Assembly (NCBI RefSeq): GCF_003236295.1
Contig: NZ_POTW01000052.1
Location: 1-47,576, forward strand
Direction of reading: 5' to 3'
Source of the DNA: Jiangella anatolica
GTDB taxonomy: Bacteria > Actinomycetota > Actinomycetes > Jiangellales > Jiangellaceae
DNA: 47,576 nucleotides
Part shown: piece by piece, positions 8,416 to 33,500 of the stretch
Layout of the letters: each line of letters opens with the position of its first letter
Position numbering within the stretch: position 1 is the first letter of the stretch
Translations under genes and position numbers: made by a program
Notes under the pieces: model-generated
Told to the model about the DNA's origin: nothing
Database searches by the model: none
Seen by the model: the letters and a program-made list of their open reading frames with translations, nothing else

Positions 8416-11400
8416 ATGCCCACCCCTCCCCTCACCGATTCGCCGGCCGACCTGCGCGCCCGCCTGCCCGAGCTGATGCTGCGGGACGAGCGGCGGCTGG
8501 CCCGCCGGCTCGACGGCGTGCGCAAGGCCCGGACGGACGACGCGCTGGCCGAGATCGCGCGCGAGGTCGCCGCGGCCGAGCGGCGGGTCGAACGCCGTAG
8601 GGCGGCCGTCCCCGAGGTCCGCTACCCGCAGGAGCTGCCGATCAGCCGGCGGCGCGACGAGATCGCCGCCGCCATCCGCGACCATCAGGTCGTCATCGTC
8701 GCCGGTGAGACCGGGTCGGGGAAGACGACGCAGCTGCCGAAGATCTGCCTGGAGCTGGGCCGCGGCATCCGTGGCACGATCGGGCACACCCAGCCGCGCC
8801 GGCTGGCCGCGCGCACGGTCGCCGAGCGGGTCGCCGAGGAGCTGCACACCGAGCTCGGCGCCGCCGTCGGCTACCAGGTGCGGTTCACCGCGAAGGCCGG
8901 CGACGACACGCTGGTGAAGCTGATGACCGACGGCATCCTGCTGGCCGAGATCGGCCAGGACCGCATGCTGCGCCGCTACGACACGCTGATCATCGACGAG
9001 GCGCACGAGCGCAGCCTGAACATCGACTTCATCCTCGGCTACCTCAAGCAGCTGCTGCCCAGGCGCCCGGACCTGAAGGTGATCATCACCTCGGCGACGA
9101 TCGACCCGGAACGGTTCGCCCGGCACTTCGGCGATGCCCCGATCATCGAGGTCAGCGGCCGGACGTATCCGGTCGAGATCCGCTACCGCCCGCTCGAGCC
9201 GGAGACCGACGACGCCGGCGGCGAGCCGCGCGACCAGATCCAGGCCATCGTCGAGGCCTGCGACGAGCTGGCGCTGGAGCCGCCCGGCGACGTGCTGGTG
9301 TTCCTGTCCGGCGAGCGGGAGATCCGCGACACCGCCGACGCGCTGCGCAAGCGGTACGCGTCGGCGCCCCAGGGCACGCTGGAGGTGCTGCCGCTCTACG
9401 CCCGGCTGTCCGCAGCCGAGCAGCACCGGGTCTTCCAGCCGCACACCGGCCGGCGGATCGTGCTGGCCACGAACGTCGCCGAGACCTCGCTGACGGTGCC
9501 CGGCATCCGCTACGTCGTCGACCCCGGCACCGCGCGCATCTCCCGCTACAGCAACCGGACGAAGGTGCAGCGGCTGCCGATCGAGCCGGTGTCGCAGGCG
9601 TCGGCGCGGCAGCGGGCCGGTCGTTGCGGCCGGCTCTCCGACGGCGTGTGCATCCGGCTCTACTCGGAGGAGGACTTCGAGGCGCGGCCCACGTTCACCG
9701 AGCCGGAGATCCTGCGCACCAACCTCGCGTCGGTCATCCTGCAGATGACGGCGCTGGGCCTGGGCGAGGTCGCGGCGTTCCCGTTCCTCGACCCGCCGGA
9801 CCGGCGCAGCATCGCCGACGGCGTCAGCCTGCTGGTCGAGCTGGGCGCGCTGGACCCGCTGGCCAAGGACGACAAGAACAAGCTGACCGACGTCGGGCGG
9901 TCGCTGTCGCAGCTGCCGATCGACCCGCGGCTGGCCCGGATGCTGATCGAGGCCGGCCGCAACGGCACCGTCCGCGAACTGCTCGTCCTCACCGCCGCGC
10001 TGACGATCCAGGACCCGCGCGAGCGCCCCGCCGACCAGCGCGAGGTCGCCGACGCGTTCCACGCCCGGTTCGCCGACCAGACGTCGGACTTCCTGTCCTT
10101 CCTCAACCTCTGGCGGTACGTGAAGGAGCAGCAGCAGGAGCTGTCGTCCAGCGCGTTCCGCCGGCTGTGCCGCACCGAGCACCTCAACTACCTGCGCATC
10201 CGCGAGTGGCAGGACCTGGAGTCGCAACTGCGCCAGCTGGTGAAGCCCCTGGGTCTCACGCTCAATCAGGCCAAGGGATCAGAGGACAACATCCACCAGG
10301 CGCTGCTCGCCGGGCTGCTCTCGCACCTCGGGGTCAAGGACGAGGCGGGCAACGAGTACCAGGGCGCGCGCGGCGCGAAGTTCGCCGTCTTCCCCGGGTC
10401 GGCGCTGTTCAAGAAGCCGCCGCGCTGGGTGATGTCGGCCGAGCTGGTCGAGACGTCGCGGCTGTGGGCCCGCGTCAACGCCCGCATCGACCCGGCGTGG
10501 GCCGAGCCGCTGGCCGAGCACCTGGTGAAGCGGACGTACAGCGAACCGCACTGGGAGCGCAAGGCCGGCGCCGTCCTGGGCTACGAGAAGGTCATGCTCT
10601 ACGGCGTGGTCATCGTGCCGCGGCGCAAGGTGCAGTACTCCCGCGTCGACCCGGAGCTGAGCCGCGAGCTGTTCATCCGGCACGCACTGGTCGAGGGCGA
10701 CTGGACGACGCAGCACAGGTTCTTCCACGAGAACCGCGAGCTGCTCGAGGACGTCGAGGAGCTGGAGCACCGGGCCCGGCGCCGCGACATCGTCGTCGAC
10801 GACGAGACGCTGTTCGCCTTCTACGACGAGCGCATCCCGGCCGACGTCGTCTCCGGCCGGCACTTCGACAGCTGGTGGAAGAAGGCCCGGCACGACCGCC
10901 CGGACCTGCTCACGTTCGACACCGACCTGCTGACCACCGACGCCGCCGGCGCCGTCACGCAGGCCGACTACCCCGACGCCTGGCCCGGCGACCTCGGCCT
11001 GCGACTCACGTACCAGTTCGAGCCGGGATCCAGCGCCGACGGCGTCACGGTGCACGTCCCGATCGAGGTGCTCAACCAGGTCGAGCCCGACGGGTTCGAC
11101 TGGCAGGTGCCGGGGCTGCGGCCGGAGCTGGTGACGGCGCTGATCAAGGCGCTGCCCAAGCCGCTGCGGCGCTCGTTCGTGCCGGCGCCGGACACCGCAC
11201 GCGAGGCGCTGGCGCAGCTGCCGCCGTCGCCGTCGGGGCAGCCGTTCACCGCCGCGCTGGCCCGGGTGCTGCACCGGCTGCGGGCGGTGCCGGTGACGGC
11301 CGACGACTTCGACCTGAGCAAGGTGCCCGACCACCTGCGCATGACGTTCCGGGTGCTGGACGAGAAGGGCAGGCCGGCCGGCGAGGGCAAGGACCTCGAC

Positions 11401-12333
11401 GCGCTGAAGGTGCGGCTCAAGCAGCAACTGCGCCAGACGATGGCGGCCGCGGCCAGCAGCATCGAGCGAACCGGGCTGACGGAATGGCCGGGCGGCGAGG
11501 TGCCGCGGACGTTCGAGCAGCGCCGCGCCGGTCACGTCGTCACCGGCTACCCGGCGCTGGTCGACGACGGCGCCACGGTCGCGCTGCGGGTGCTGCCGAC
11601 GCCGGCGGACCAGGCCCGCGCGATGTGGACCGGCAACCGCCGGCTGCTGCTCCTCAGCGTCCCGTCGCCGACGGCGTTCGTGCAGCGTCACCTGGCCAAC
11701 CGGTCCAAGCTGGTGCTCAGCCAGAACCCCGACGGCTCGGTCGCCGCGCTGCTCGACGACGTCGCCGCCGCGTCCGTCGACTGGCTGGTGGCCGAGGCGG
11801 GCGGGCCGGCCTGGGACGAGGCGGCGTTCGCCGCGCTGCGCGAGCGGGTCCGCGCCGACCTCATCGAGACCGTCTTCGAGGTCGTCGCCGACGTCGAGAA
11901 GGTGCTGGAGGTGGCGCACCGGGTCGCGGCGACGCTGAAGAGCACCACCAGCCTGGCGCTGGCCGCGTCGCTCGTCGACGCCCGCGACCACCTGGCCCGG
12001 CTGATGGCGCCCGGCTTCGTCACGTCCACCGGCCGCCGCCGGCTGCCGGACCTGCTGCGCTACCTGCGGGCGATCGAGCGGCGGCTGGAGAAGCTGCCGA
12101 CCAGCCCGCAGCGCGACCACCAGAACATGGGCACCGTCCGCCGGGTCACCGAGGAGTACGAGGCCGCGCTGGCCGCCCTCCCGCCCGGCCACGGCCCCAC
12201 GCCCGAGCACGACGCCGTCGCCCGGCTCATCGAGGAGCTGCGGGTCAGCCTGTTCGCCCAAGAGCTCGGCACCGCCCAGCCGGTCTCGGAGAAACGCCTG
12301 CTCAAGGCCATCGACGCCCTCTACGACACCTGA
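8416..12333 (+). CDS. hrpA: ATP-dependent RNA helicase HrpA
   Basis: 1305 residues, matching full-length bacterial HrpA (about 1300). Domains in order: N-terminal charged helices (1-80); a DEAH-box helicase core with Walker A GETGSGKT (97-104), DEAH (194-197), SAT (226-228) and motif VI QRAGRCGR (about 399-406); the HA2/ratchet and OB-fold region; and the long C-terminal domain (DUF3418) found only in HrpA. It uses ATP hydrolysis to unwind or remodel RNA and, in E. coli, rescues collided ribosomes (family knowledge). ATG 8416 starts the family-like MPTPPLTDSPADLRARLPEL region. It is monocistronic: a 187-bp inverted repeat starts at the last base of its stop codon. Confidence 0.96.
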   Translation: MPTPPLTDSPADLRARLPELMLRDERRLARRLDGVRKARTDDALAEIAREVAAAERRVERRRAAVPEVRYPQELPISRRRDEIAAAIRDHQVVIVAGETGSGKTTQLPKICLELGRGIRGTIGHTQPRRLAARTVAERVAEELHTELGAAVGYQVRFTAKAGDDTLVKLMTDGILLAEIGQDRMLRRYDTLIIDEAHERSLNIDFILGYLKQLLPRRPDLKVIITSATIDPERFARHFGDAPIIEVSGRTYPVEIRYRPLEPETDDAGGEPRDQIQAIVEACDELALEPPGDVLVFLSGEREIRDTADALRKRYASAPQGTLEVLPLYARLSAAEQHRVFQPHTGRRIVLATNVAETSLTVPGIRYVVDPGTARISRYSNRTKVQRLPIEPVSQASARQRAGRCGRLSDGVCIRLYSEEDFEARPTFTEPEILRTNLASVILQMTALGLGEVAAFPFLDPPDRRSIADGVSLLVELGALDPLAKDDKNKLTDVGRSLSQLPIDPRLARMLIEAGRNGTVRELLVLTAALTIQDPRERPADQREVADAFHARFADQTSDFLSFLNLWRYVKEQQQELSSSAFRRLCRTEHLNYLRIREWQDLESQLRQLVKPLGLTLNQAKGSEDNIHQALLAGLLSHLGVKDEAGNEYQGARGAKFAVFPGSALFKKPPRWVMSAELVETSRLWARVNARIDPAWAEPLAEHLVKRTYSEPHWERKAGAVLGYEKVMLYGVVIVPRRKVQYSRVDPELSRELFIRHALVEGDWTTQHRFFHENRELLEDVEELEHRARRRDIVVDDETLFAFYDERIPADVVSGRHFDSWWKKARHDRPDLLTFDTDLLTTDAAGAVTQADYPDAWPGDLGLRLTYQFEPGSSADGVTVHVPIEVLNQVEPDGFDWQVPGLRPELVTALIKALPKPLRRSFVPAPDTAREALAQLPPSPSGQPFTAALARVLHRLRAVPVTADDFDLSKVPDHLRMTFRVLDEKGRPAGEGKDLDALKVRLKQQLRQTMAAAASSIERTGLTEWPGGEVPRTFEQRRAGHVVTGYPALVDDGATVALRVLPTPADQARAMWTGNRRLLLLSVPSPTAFVQRHLANRSKLVLSQNPDGSVAALLDDVAAASVDWLVAEAGGPAWDEAAFAALRERVRADLIETVFEVVADVEKVLEVAHRVAATLKSTTSLALAASLVDARDHLARLMAPGFVTSTGRRRLPDLLRYLRAIERRLEKLPTSPQRDHQNMGTVRRVTEEYEAALAALPPGHGPTPEHDAVARLIEELRVSLFAQELGTAQPVSEKRLLKAIDALYDT

Positions 12334-12519
12334 ATGATCACGTTGAGTGGGTGTGCTCCCGCTCTACCACCCATGCATGCCTGGGGAAGCGTGAGAACGC
12401 CGCAAGACACAGGCAATCGCTTTCCGCGGCGTCGCCCGGCGCCCGGTCCAGGCGAGTTCACGGTTCGCTAGGCATGCTTGCCTCGCAGAGCAGGAGCACA
12501 CCAACTCAACGTGATCATT
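12333..12519. repeat. 187-bp imperfect palindromic element (MITE-like or giant bidirectional terminator)
   Basis: The left arm 12333-12401 and right arm 12451-12519 are inverted repeats matching at 56 of 69 positions, separated by 49 bp of weaker symmetry. The outermost 9 bp (AATGATCAC / GTGATCATT) are perfect and the outer 29 bp have only two mismatches. The element supplies the last A of the hrpA TGA stop and the last A of the cbiO TAA stop, so it fills the space between two convergent genes exactly. I see no flanking target-site duplication and no ORF. It would fold in either transcript into a very long hairpin and should stop or insulate transcription. Whether it is a mobile miniature element or a fixed terminator needs copy counting. 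Confidence 0.75.
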
Positions 12520-13283
12520 TAGGGTCGGCCAGGAGCCACCGACCGCGGGTCGAACCCGTACGGCAGCTCCAACCGGTGCGCCGCCAGCAAGTCCGCGTCC
12601 CCCAGCACGTCCGCCGTCGCCCCATCAGCAACCACCGCCCCACCCGACAGCACCACCGAACGCGGGCACAGCTGCAGCGCGAACGGCAGATCGTGGGTGA
12701 CCACGAGCTGCGTCACGTCGAGCGAGTCGAGGACGTCGTGCAGCTCGCGCCGGCTGGCTGGGTCGAGGTTGCTGGTGGGCTCGTCCAGCACGAGGATCTC
12801 CGGCCGCATCGCCAGCACCGTCGCGACGGCGACCCGGCGGCGCTGGCCGAACGAGAGGTGGTGCGGCGGCCGGTCGGCGACGTCGCCCATGCCGACGAGG
12901 TCCAGCGCCTCGGACACCCGCGCGTCCAGCTCGGCGCCGCGCAGGCCCAGGTTGGCCGGGCCGAACGCGACGTCGTCGCGGACCGTCGGCATGAACAGCT
13001 GGTCGTCGGGGTCCTGGAAGACGATGCCGACGCGACGGCGGATCTCCCGCAGCGTGTCGCGATCGCCCGGCCGGACCTCCAGGCCGCCGACGCGGACCGT
13101 GCCCACGCCGCCGGAGAGGATGCCGTTGAGGTGCAGCACCAGCGTCGTCTTGCCGGCGCCGTTCGGCCCGAGCAGCGCGACCCGCTCGCCCCGTCCGATC
13201 GTGAGGTCGACGCCGAACAGCGCCTGGTGGCCGTCGGGGTAGGCGAAGGCCAGCCCGGCGACCTCCAGCGAGACCTCGATCAT
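12519..13283 (-). CDS. cbiO: ECF transporter ATPase CbiO (cobalt/nickel uptake)
   Basis: A 254-residue ABC ATPase. Walker A is GPNGAGKTT, the Q-loop is in GIVFQDPDDQLF (the DPDDQ form is typical of ECF ATPases), the signature is the degenerate LSFGQRRR, Walker B is ILVLDEPTSNLD and the switch histidine is in VVTHDLPFA. It energises the membrane complex made by the two upstream genes. Its ATG (13283) overlaps the cbiQ stop by 4 nt. The usual signature LSGGQ is altered to LSFGQ, which is common among ECF ATPases. The stop codon is shared with the 187-bp palindromic element. Confidence 0.93.
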   Translation of the reverse strand: MIEVSLEVAGLAFAYPDGHQALFGVDLTIGRGERVALLGPNGAGKTTLVLHLNGILSGGVGTVRVGGLEVRPGDRDTLREIRRRVGIVFQDPDDQLFMPTVRDDVAFGPANLGLRGAELDARVSEALDLVGMGDVADRPPHHLSFGQRRRVAVATVLAMRPEILVLDEPTSNLDPASRRELHDVLDSLDVTQLVVTHDLPFALQLCPRSVVLSGGAVVADGATADVLGDADLLAAHRLELPYGFDPRSVAPGRP

Positions 13284-32319: not shown

Positions 32320-32349
32320 GCAGAGACTTAAGTTTCCGCGCTGGCTCCC

Positions 32350-33480
32350 ATGATCATCAACCTTCTGGGTCGCCCTGGGCAGGCTCAAGTGGTGGTTGCA
32401 ACGAGCAGCTGGTTGAGCCGCTGGGCTGGAGTCTGCCAGTTCAGGGTGTGGCGGGGGCGGGTGTTGAGTTGGTCGGCGACGGTGTCGAGGTCGGCCTGGG
32501 TGAGGGTGGTGAAGTCGGTGCTGCCTTTGGGGAAGTAGTCGCGCAGCAGCCGGTTGGTGTTCTCGTTGCTGCCGCGTTGCCAGGGGCTGTGCGGGTCGCA
32601 GAAGTAGACCTCGATGCCGGTGGCCAGGGTGAACGTGGCGTGGTCGGCCATCTCGCTGCCTTGGTCCCAGGTCAGCGTGCGGCGCAGCGACGCCGGCAGG
32701 GCGCGCATCGCCTCGGCCAGTTGGGCGGCGACGAACTCGCTGATCTTCCCGTCCGGGAGTGCGACCAACCGGACGTAGCGGCTGGACCGCTCCACCAGGG
32801 TCGCGACCACGGAGTGGTTGCGGGCACCGACGAGCAGGTCGCCTTCCCAGTGCCCGGGCACCGCCCGGTCCGCGGCCTCGGCCGGGCGGGCGCTGATGTG
32901 CAGGTCCACCCAGGGGCGCGCCGAGCGCAACGCCCCGGCCGCGCTCGTGCGGGCCTGGCGGCGGACCCGCCCGGTGCGTAACGCCTTCTGGTGGGACAGC
33001 TCCGCGCGCAGGTTGCCCCGCGCCTGCAGGTACACCGCCTGGTAGATCGTCTCGTGCGACACCTGCATCCCCGCATCACCGGCATACTCCACCGCCAGCC
33101 ACGCCGAGATCTGTTCCGGCGACCACCGCTGCTGCAGCTTGTCGATCACCGCCCGGCGCAGCGGGCTGTCCTGAACCAGTTTCCCCCGCCTGGGCCGGGC
33201 CCGGAACAACCGCGCCGTCTCATCGGCGGCCACCGCCCGATACGGCTGACCCAGCCACTCGAAACTCAACTTCGCGATCTCCCGCGAGATCGTCGACACC
33301 GCCCGCCCCAACCGCGCCGCGATCGAGGCCACCGACTCCTCCCGCGCCCGACCCACCGCAATCTCTTCCCGCTCCACCAACGACAACCTCGCCGCCACCA
33401 CGCCACCTCCACCCCACATCCTGCGGCGTTGCAACCACCGATTGAGTCTGCCTATCACGCCCCGAAAGGTTGATGATCAT
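32350..33480 (-). mobile_element. Complete IS30-family insertion sequence
   Basis: About 1131 bp bounded by inverted repeats. The outer 15 bp (ATGATCATCAACCTT) are identical at both ends, and similarity runs inward for about 54 bp, including GGCAG, CTCAA and GGTGGTTGCAACG blocks. If the true ends start at GATCATC, AT flanks both sides as a 2-bp target duplication, in the range known for IS30; the palindromic ends make this ambiguous. It sits between the ArsR promoter region and the aminotransferase gene and interrupts no recognisable gene. Confidence 0.9.
32385..33458 (-). CDS. IS30-family transposase
   Basis: 357 residues, normal for IS30. An N-terminal HTH (SIAARLGRAVSTISREI) binds the repeats. 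The DDE triad is intact: Asp207 (GHWEGDLLVG), Asp265 (LTWDQGSEM) and Glu299 (RGSNENTNRLLRDYFPKGS). HETIYQAVY is another IS30 marker. The GTG start at 33458 lies inside the right inverted repeat; ATG 33419 is an alternative. It has no frameshift or stop, so the element may be active. The stop is 35 nt from the left end of the element. Confidence 0.95.
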   Translation of the reverse strand: MIGRLNRWLQRRRMWGGGGVVAARLSLVEREEIAVGRAREESVASIAARLGRAVSTISREIAKLSFEWLGQPYRAVAADETARLFRARPRRGKLVQDSPLRRAVIDKLQQRWSPEQISAWLAVEYAGDAGMQVSHETIYQAVYLQARGNLRAELSHQKALRTGRVRRQARTSAAGALRSARPWVDLHISARPAEAADRAVPGHWEGDLLVGARNHSVVATLVERSSRYVRLVALPDGKISEFVAAQLAEAMRALPASLRRTLTWDQGSEMADHATFTLATGIEVYFCDPHSPWQRGSNENTNRLLRDYFPKGSTDFTTLTQADLDTVADQLNTRPRHTLNWQTPAQRLNQLLVATTT

Positions 33481-33500
33481 GGAACGGCGCGTTGGCCGGG

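Follow-up and report, generated by a model that had tools for sequence, protein, structure and literature searches.

A dispersed family of 94-bp palindromes at gene ends in Jiangella and related genera, with a long member between hrpA and cbiO

The inverted repeat that lies between the convergent hrpA-like and cbiO-like genes of Jiangella anatolica is best read as a long, partly decayed member of a dispersed palindrome family, here called F1, of Jiangella and its relatives. Copies of F1 are multiple and of recurrent length, their stems have changed in a compensatory manner, they lie in a characteristic gene context and fit closely to stop codons, and at two junctions F1 stands where relatives have a native hairpin. 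From these comparisons we infer termination, mobility and an order of events, and in our judgement F1 is probably a dispersed palindrome that has been retained as a two-way terminator. No description of the family in Jiangella or Jiangellaceae was found by title or abstract start in open-licence PubMed Central.

The inverted repeat between hrpA and cbiO

The window, meaning the whole 47,576-nt stretch of J. anatolica DNA that was analysed, contains the features collected in Table 1.

Table 1. Positions in the window of the F1 element, its parts, the neighbouring genes and the IS30-like element.
Feature	Position	Strand	Remarks
F1 element, long form	12333..12519	.	reaches from the hrpA stop codon to the cbiO stop codon, abutting or completing each
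Left arm, near-F1 unit minus the inner end	12329..12401	+	repeat finding, comparison with other copies, model R1
Right arm, inverted copy of the left arm	12451..12523	-	repeat finding, comparison with other copies
Outer end TGATCACGT	12335..12343	+	left end TGATCA-N-GT invariant in 41 aligned copies
Outer end TGATCACGT, other strand	12509..12517	-	nearly invariant at right end
Middle segment	12402..12450	.	13-mer GAAAGCGATTGCC (minus strand) recurs in the 173-bp J. endophytica copy L062
hrpA-like helicase gene, 3' end at element	8416..12333	+	name from the original prediction
cbiO-like gene, 3' end at element	12519..13283	-	name from the original prediction
IS30-like element	32348-33482		transposase with rve and HTH_38 domains, inverted ends CCATGATCATCAACC

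The stop codon of hrpA (TGA) is read at 12331-12333 on the plus strand and that of cbiO (TAA) at 12521-12519 on the minus strand, and, as the original prediction claimed, the element runs from the final base of the one stop to that of the other. The likeness that it claimed for the arms was also borne out: of the 69 positions compared between 12333-12401 and 12451-12519, 56 agree, and two of the mismatches fall in the outermost 29; the highest score reached by 20,000 random 187-mers drawn from the window was 39 of 69. A repeat finder run on the window returned arms of 73 nt that are 81% complementary and spaced 49 nt apart. Folding of 12327-12525 as RNA gave -124.5 kcal/mol (z -11.3), a value as low as which was reached by none of 200 shuffles. 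When the whole window was scanned with Rfam at gathering score only one tRNA was found and no family at the element, and there is no T-run terminator consensus within 12200-12650. The covariance model R1 (see below) matches the element weakly, at 12329-12421 with an E-value of 0.003. Measured from TGATCA to TGATCA the window copy is a long form of 183 bp and by eye it resembles, end to end, the 173-bp J. endophytica copy (L062), which has other flanking genes; a search found a 13-mer from the middle segment to be common to the two.

Copies, distribution and stem structure

Reading of individual copies gave two repeat groups, F1, in which an inner palindrome is framed by the outer ends TGATCACGT, and F2, which has the inner core alone. 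The basic unit of F1 is a 94-bp palindrome with ends AATGATCAYGT and with 82 bp from TGATCA to TGATCA. Twelve of 20 two-ended copies measure exactly 82 bp between their TGATCA ends (94 with paired flanks) and eight are longer, the long forms other than the window copy being 151 (twice), 173, 204, 224, 265 and 465 bp between these ends. Two copies in J. endophytica (L072, 1162-1365, and L073, 6441-6664) owe their extra length to inner units of about 20 bp repeated in tandem. In the same species a repeat of about 450 bp recurs at six loci (L088-L093); identity to the first is 87-92%, no gene was called within it, and each has one F1-type end.

With the element as query at least 64 matches were obtained in its own genome, counting both strands and the window itself (best 40 of 139 candidates scored), and the F1 end at one mismatch or fewer marks 18 loci there, the window included. 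The original prediction had looked to copies at other loci, and to empty sites in relatives, as the mark of a mobile miniature element; 17 further pattern-defined loci were found in the own genome and element-free junctions in some relatives. The end motif at one mismatch or fewer occurs at least 27 times in the own genome, at least 64 times in J. endophytica (G007), at least 56 in J. gansuensis (G003), at least 13 in J. aurantiaca (G006), at least five in G005 and at least once in G001, and among the matches listed there is none in the six other Jiangella genomes; at least two were found in a single genome of a different genus within the family, and a reversed-pattern control gave no matches. 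A longer exact F1 pattern found 27 stretches in the contigs of the named genomes, only in J. endophytica and J. aurantiaca.

At an E-value of 0.01 model R1 matched 10 of the 12 Jiangella genomes among the matches listed, with at least 20 matches in each of eight, weak ones in G008 (two) and G010 (one) and, among the matches listed, none in G004 and G009. At 0.001 the matches listed came from 17 of the family's 22 genomes and from every one of its six genera, and included none from G017. As a palindrome scores on both strands and scoring was limited to 150 candidates per genome, the largest of these counts are lower limits; copies were read individually in Jiangella and in two other genera of the six. 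Because four Jiangella genomes have no matches or one or two weak ones, and G017 has none, F1 is evidently dispensable. An exact pattern run across the class matched 5 of 197 genomes (four Jiangella and one of another genus of the family) among the matches listed, and so detects less than the model does (17 of 22 in the family) because it cannot recognise the stems found in other genera. Neither exact pattern had a match in viral contigs.

Twenty-one copies from four Jiangella genomes, which were selected for the 82-bp spacing and from which R1 was built, align without gaps, and 22 of their 44 pairs have changed on both sides. In two other genera the 20 copies read, from four genomes, are all 94 bp long and 89-100% symmetric with genome-specific stems, although their being the top of the match list flatters the average symmetry; the six read in G021 have a mean identity of 93%. 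Over all 41 aligned copies 89.0% of cells are paired, against 35.6-42.1% in slid controls, which retain the same kinship of copies that inflates such scores; 29 of the 44 pairs have changed on both sides, and four of five pairing measures were attained by none of 500 shuffles (the fifth by 16 of 500). Conservation is laid out as fixed ends and a well conserved apex region, between which the stem is freer but self-complementary. In the other genera there are near-perfect 94-bp F1 palindromes.

The F2 family occupies 22 loci of the own genome (L019-L029, L032-L039, L041, L046 and L047) and has its inner core in common with F1. Many F2 copies lie inside longer repeats with ATGATCATCAA, which resembles the IS30-like ends, on one side and CCCCTGATAGCTGCCCGTTCTT further out, and some are the core alone. 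DUF222/13E12 genes were rejected as a source of F2, since PF02720 matches fall elsewhere than the F2 loci.

Gene context and the same junctions in relatives

Genes were called with a simple coding-bias finder, for which four genes of the window served as the training set and which reproduces the ends of hrpA and cbiO. The gene context was read for 46 F1 elements, 18 from the own genome and the other 28 from J. endophytica and J. aurantiaca loci. Convergent genes flank 30 of them, co-directional genes 15 and divergent genes none, and one is unknown, whereas the 224 gene pairs of the same loci comprise 36 convergent, 158 co-directional and 30 divergent, a background that includes the F1 junctions and thus makes the test of convergence conservative. 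Weighted by intergenic bases, the convergent excess has p 3e-10 and the absence of divergent copies p 2e-4. The 20 copies from four genomes of the two other genera are divided into 11 convergent, seven co-directional, none divergent and two unknown. The F2 cores (n=22) have a weaker form of the bias (10 convergent, nine co-directional, one divergent, two unknown), and strong bacterial stem-loops generally favour convergent spacers (PMC1590033), so that the convergent bias is not special to F1. A stop codon ends between -3 and +1 of a TGATCA end in 11 of the 46 elements of the Jiangella sample and in 11 of the 20 of other genera, and at some loci the stop codon of the gene is the TGA of the F1 element itself. 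F1 can sit directly on a last codon because its end carries TGA in both directions (some copies also have TAA just outside).

The C-terminal part of hrpA is present in all 12 Jiangella genomes, the window's genome included, and in ten readable relatives its stop lies -2 to +5 codons from that of the window, within one codon in five of the ten. Comparison of the hrpA/cbiO locus in 11 relatives found cbiO directly after hrpA in J. aurantiaca and J. endophytica, whereas in G005 and G008 over 1 kb separates the two; it was not found in the compared stretch in five, and in G002 and G011 the contig ends first. The spacer of J. aurantiaca holds an F2 element whose core matches the F1 model (E 2.4e-11) and that of J. 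endophytica an unrelated inverted repeat, so that there is no clean empty site at this locus. Three kinds of inverted repeat (F1, F2 and a GTTGATCTTGGAGTT palindrome) are thus seen at one junction in three species (the window, L079 and L081), and the spot seems to accept inverted-repeat elements repeatedly.

Two other junctions bear on the native terminator. At L012 a GC-rich hairpin lies between the same two stops in all ten relatives (fold z -2.1 to -6.2), and in the window's genome the interval from stop to stop is occupied by F1 alone. At L106 a conserved hairpin is found in eight of ten relatives (z -2.9 to -7.7), F1 types are found in J. endophytica and J. gansuensis, and the window's genome has a bare 6-bp junction, so that either the hairpin can be absent where there is no F1 or F1 copies can disappear. 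At these two junctions F1 may have replaced the terminator, or the terminator may have been lost first and F1 may then have filled a tight junction. Together with the bare L106, the 20 of 99 junction comparisons that have 25 bp or less and no F1 indicate that a terminator is not always needed and that loss of the native one may precede F1. By eye, a clear native hairpin is present in most relatives at two of 11 convergent junctions compared. The loose F1 flag used in the junction comparisons includes false positives (e.g. G004) and its total, 15, was not used as an F1 count. Of the junctions compared, L013 and L044 were covered in part.

F1 types occur in more than one species at eight junctions (L009, L017, L042, L045, L051, L062, L074 and L106), which also fits old shared copies. 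At L051 long F1 forms with different stems are found in J. endophytica and G002, and of seven others four have 7-10 bp, one has a 28-bp overlap, another has 151 bp and no F1, and for the last the right gene was not located. At L045 there is F1 in G000 and J. endophytica and a decayed copy in J. aurantiaca, and it is absent from the other five compared. At L009 F1 types lie at the stop codon in G000, G002, G011 and J. gansuensis, and their stems differ apart from those of G002 and G011, which are alike. This one gene end (L009 in G000, L127 in G002, L129 in G011, L133 in J. gansuensis) therefore carries F1 types with stems differing among species, either as old copies rewritten in each species or through repeated insertion at one spot. 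Many shared copies are confirmed by R1; L127, L171 and L206, which are long or one-ended, have the end motif and no model match at the junction.

These contexts might also be expected of a purely selfish palindrome that inserts anywhere and does nothing for the host, its copies surviving only outside coding and promoter DNA and so at the 3' ends of genes, an explanation that is less probable but that we regard as a serious one. Its several to many copies, patchy among species, and the similar context tendency of the F2 repeats are in keeping with it, and selection against promoter damage would leave no copies in divergent spacers. Random insertion should, however, favour long spacers, and the spacer outside F1 sums to 40 bp or less at 17 of the 30 convergent junctions; the native hairpins missing at L012 and L106 also argue against it, as do the many compensatory stem changes, though a hairpin-dependent mobiliser would select these too.

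Mobility, termination and relation to known elements

F1 has multiple dispersed non-coding copies with terminal inverted repeats, as MITEs do. Unrelated loci, patchy species and empty junctions support its dispersal, and it has presumably been mobile. At the one clean pair of filled and empty sites (L051, J. endophytica against G011) there is no target-site duplication, the other junctions having changed too far for such a comparison. An autonomous F1 element was sought in four pairs of ends that lie 1.1-3.4 kb apart (L087, L094, L095 and L096) and was not found in them; the genes that they enclose, none of them for a transposase, are for an AbiEi-like protein, an AAA/kinase-like protein, an M48 peptidase and a GH127 glycosidase. 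Eight of ten genes that flank copies in other genera belong to ordinary Pfam families and two have no Pfam match, and no known transposases were found inside or beside the sampled copies. A likeness to integron attC sites (GTTRRRY) was dropped on reasoning, the half-site order being reversed and other subfamilies being without it. Shared gene losses of G004, G008, G009 and G010, which have none or one to two weak matches against at least 20 in the eight others, could point to the mobiliser.

Where the original prediction offered either a mobile element or a terminator, we favour both at once: the unrelated loci and the element-free junctions speak for the first, the position and the pattern of substitution fit the second, and the link to IS30 finds no support. 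A GC-rich hairpin adjoins the stops of both genes, as in a two-way terminator, and a T-run after the stem is absent. Actinobacterial terminators are often without U-tails. We suggest that F1 copies would have spread to many gene ends by some mobilising mechanism and would have been retained mainly at tail-to-tail junctions, where the identical hairpin would arise in transcripts of either strand. The hairpin probably ends or blocks transcription from both genes, standing in for the native terminator, and the end-borne TGA would let a copy land right on the final codon of a gene. A more specific mechanism, which is doubtful and is put forward tentatively, is that an enzyme reading the fixed ends and the apex swaps the 94-bp hairpin for the native terminator exactly between the stops, and that species rewrite the stems together, symmetry and length being kept.

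The invariant ends and conserved apex, with a freer stem between, resemble recognition modules, and these and the near-perfect 94-bp palindromes of other genera could be taken to mean that F1 is a site for binding or folding at the DNA level (in nucleoid organisation, replication or repair) where termination is incidental. Against this, F1 is dispensable, as the genomes with no or very few matches indicate, and such a site would not obviously need a gene-end bias; we think this improbable.

The resemblance of the element's ends to those of the IS30-like element, to which the original prediction drew attention, extends to ATGATCA, which is common to both, but then gives way to TCAACC in the IS end and CGTT in the window element. 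An IS30 origin of F1, as a miniature derivative of the window's IS30-like element, was rejected on this end sequence, divergent after seven bases, and must be rated very improbable. The spread of HTH_38 adds little: it matches all 12 Jiangella genomes, with or without F1, and the model is unspecific, so that the test is a weak one (14 of 14 control genomes also match). Other palindromes of the genus start with CATGATCAT like the IS30-like ends, which F1 does not, and no full-length IS30-family element with AATGATCACGT ends was met incidentally. Palindromes starting CATGATCAT were noted at gene ends at L155 (J. endophytica), L158 (G009) and L164 (G008), as if miniature IS30 derivatives may also settle in gene-end spacers.

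An ordinary conserved terminator particular to hrpA/cbiO would account for a strong hairpin between convergent stops but is scarcely credible, being refuted as a single-locus feature by the 17 other loci. The other inverted repeats that J. aurantiaca and J. endophytica carry where cbiO directly follows hrpA also speak against it.

MIRU of mycobacteria are intergenic units that are said to sit at stop codons, and they are direct repeats between co-directional genes. REPs lie mostly 3' of coding sequences, with a preference for junctions of co-directional or convergent genes, and the termini of GTAG REPs often provide a TAG stop codon (PMC3733652). This precedent for gene-end hairpin repeats that supply stop codons is what would recommend a REP-type element moved by a Y1 (RAYT) transposase, an origin for which we see next to no chance: Y1 transposase (PF01797) was found in none of the 12 Jiangella genomes, in a search that covered Jiangella and controls and in which the control matched 5 of 14 named genomes, including E. 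coli. F1 is like REP/BIME in being a dispersed intergenic palindrome at co-directional and convergent gene ends that can supply a stop, but REPs are 20-40 bp with a tag (GTAG or CGTC) at one end and often have a RAYT, whereas F1 is a symmetric and tagless palindrome over its whole 94 bp in Jiangella without Y1. F1 therefore has the habit of a dispersed intergenic palindrome but fails the defining REP tests made (Y1 and a tagged short hairpin).

F1 is similar to YPAL/RU-2 of Yersinia and to the MITEs RUP, NEMIS and ERIC in being small and non-coding with inverted repeats. For YPAL, relatives differ in whether a site is filled or empty, and its targets lie in or beside sequences of dyad symmetry (PMC2229807); it is about 168 bp with duplications of 3-26 bp, whereas F1 has no duplication at one clean site and its basic unit stays at 94 bp across three genera despite different stems. 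The uptake-signal hairpins of Neisseria and Pasteurellaceae, which are enriched tail-to-tail and taken as terminators (PMC1852404), are like F1 genome-wide hairpin repeats with that enrichment, but they are about 9-11 nt and generally number at least 1,000 copies, against 94 bp and tens of copies for F1, which has no known link to uptake.

F1 is a symmetric 94-bp unit, matched in six genera and reaching tens of copies in a genome, and Jiangella has no REP transposase; dispersed bacterial palindromes, in contrast, are usually explained by REP transposases or dead insertion-sequence ends. If confirmed, F1 would illustrate how loci exchange their terminators, and the split of Jiangella into carriers and non-carriers offers a direct means of seeking the responsible enzyme.
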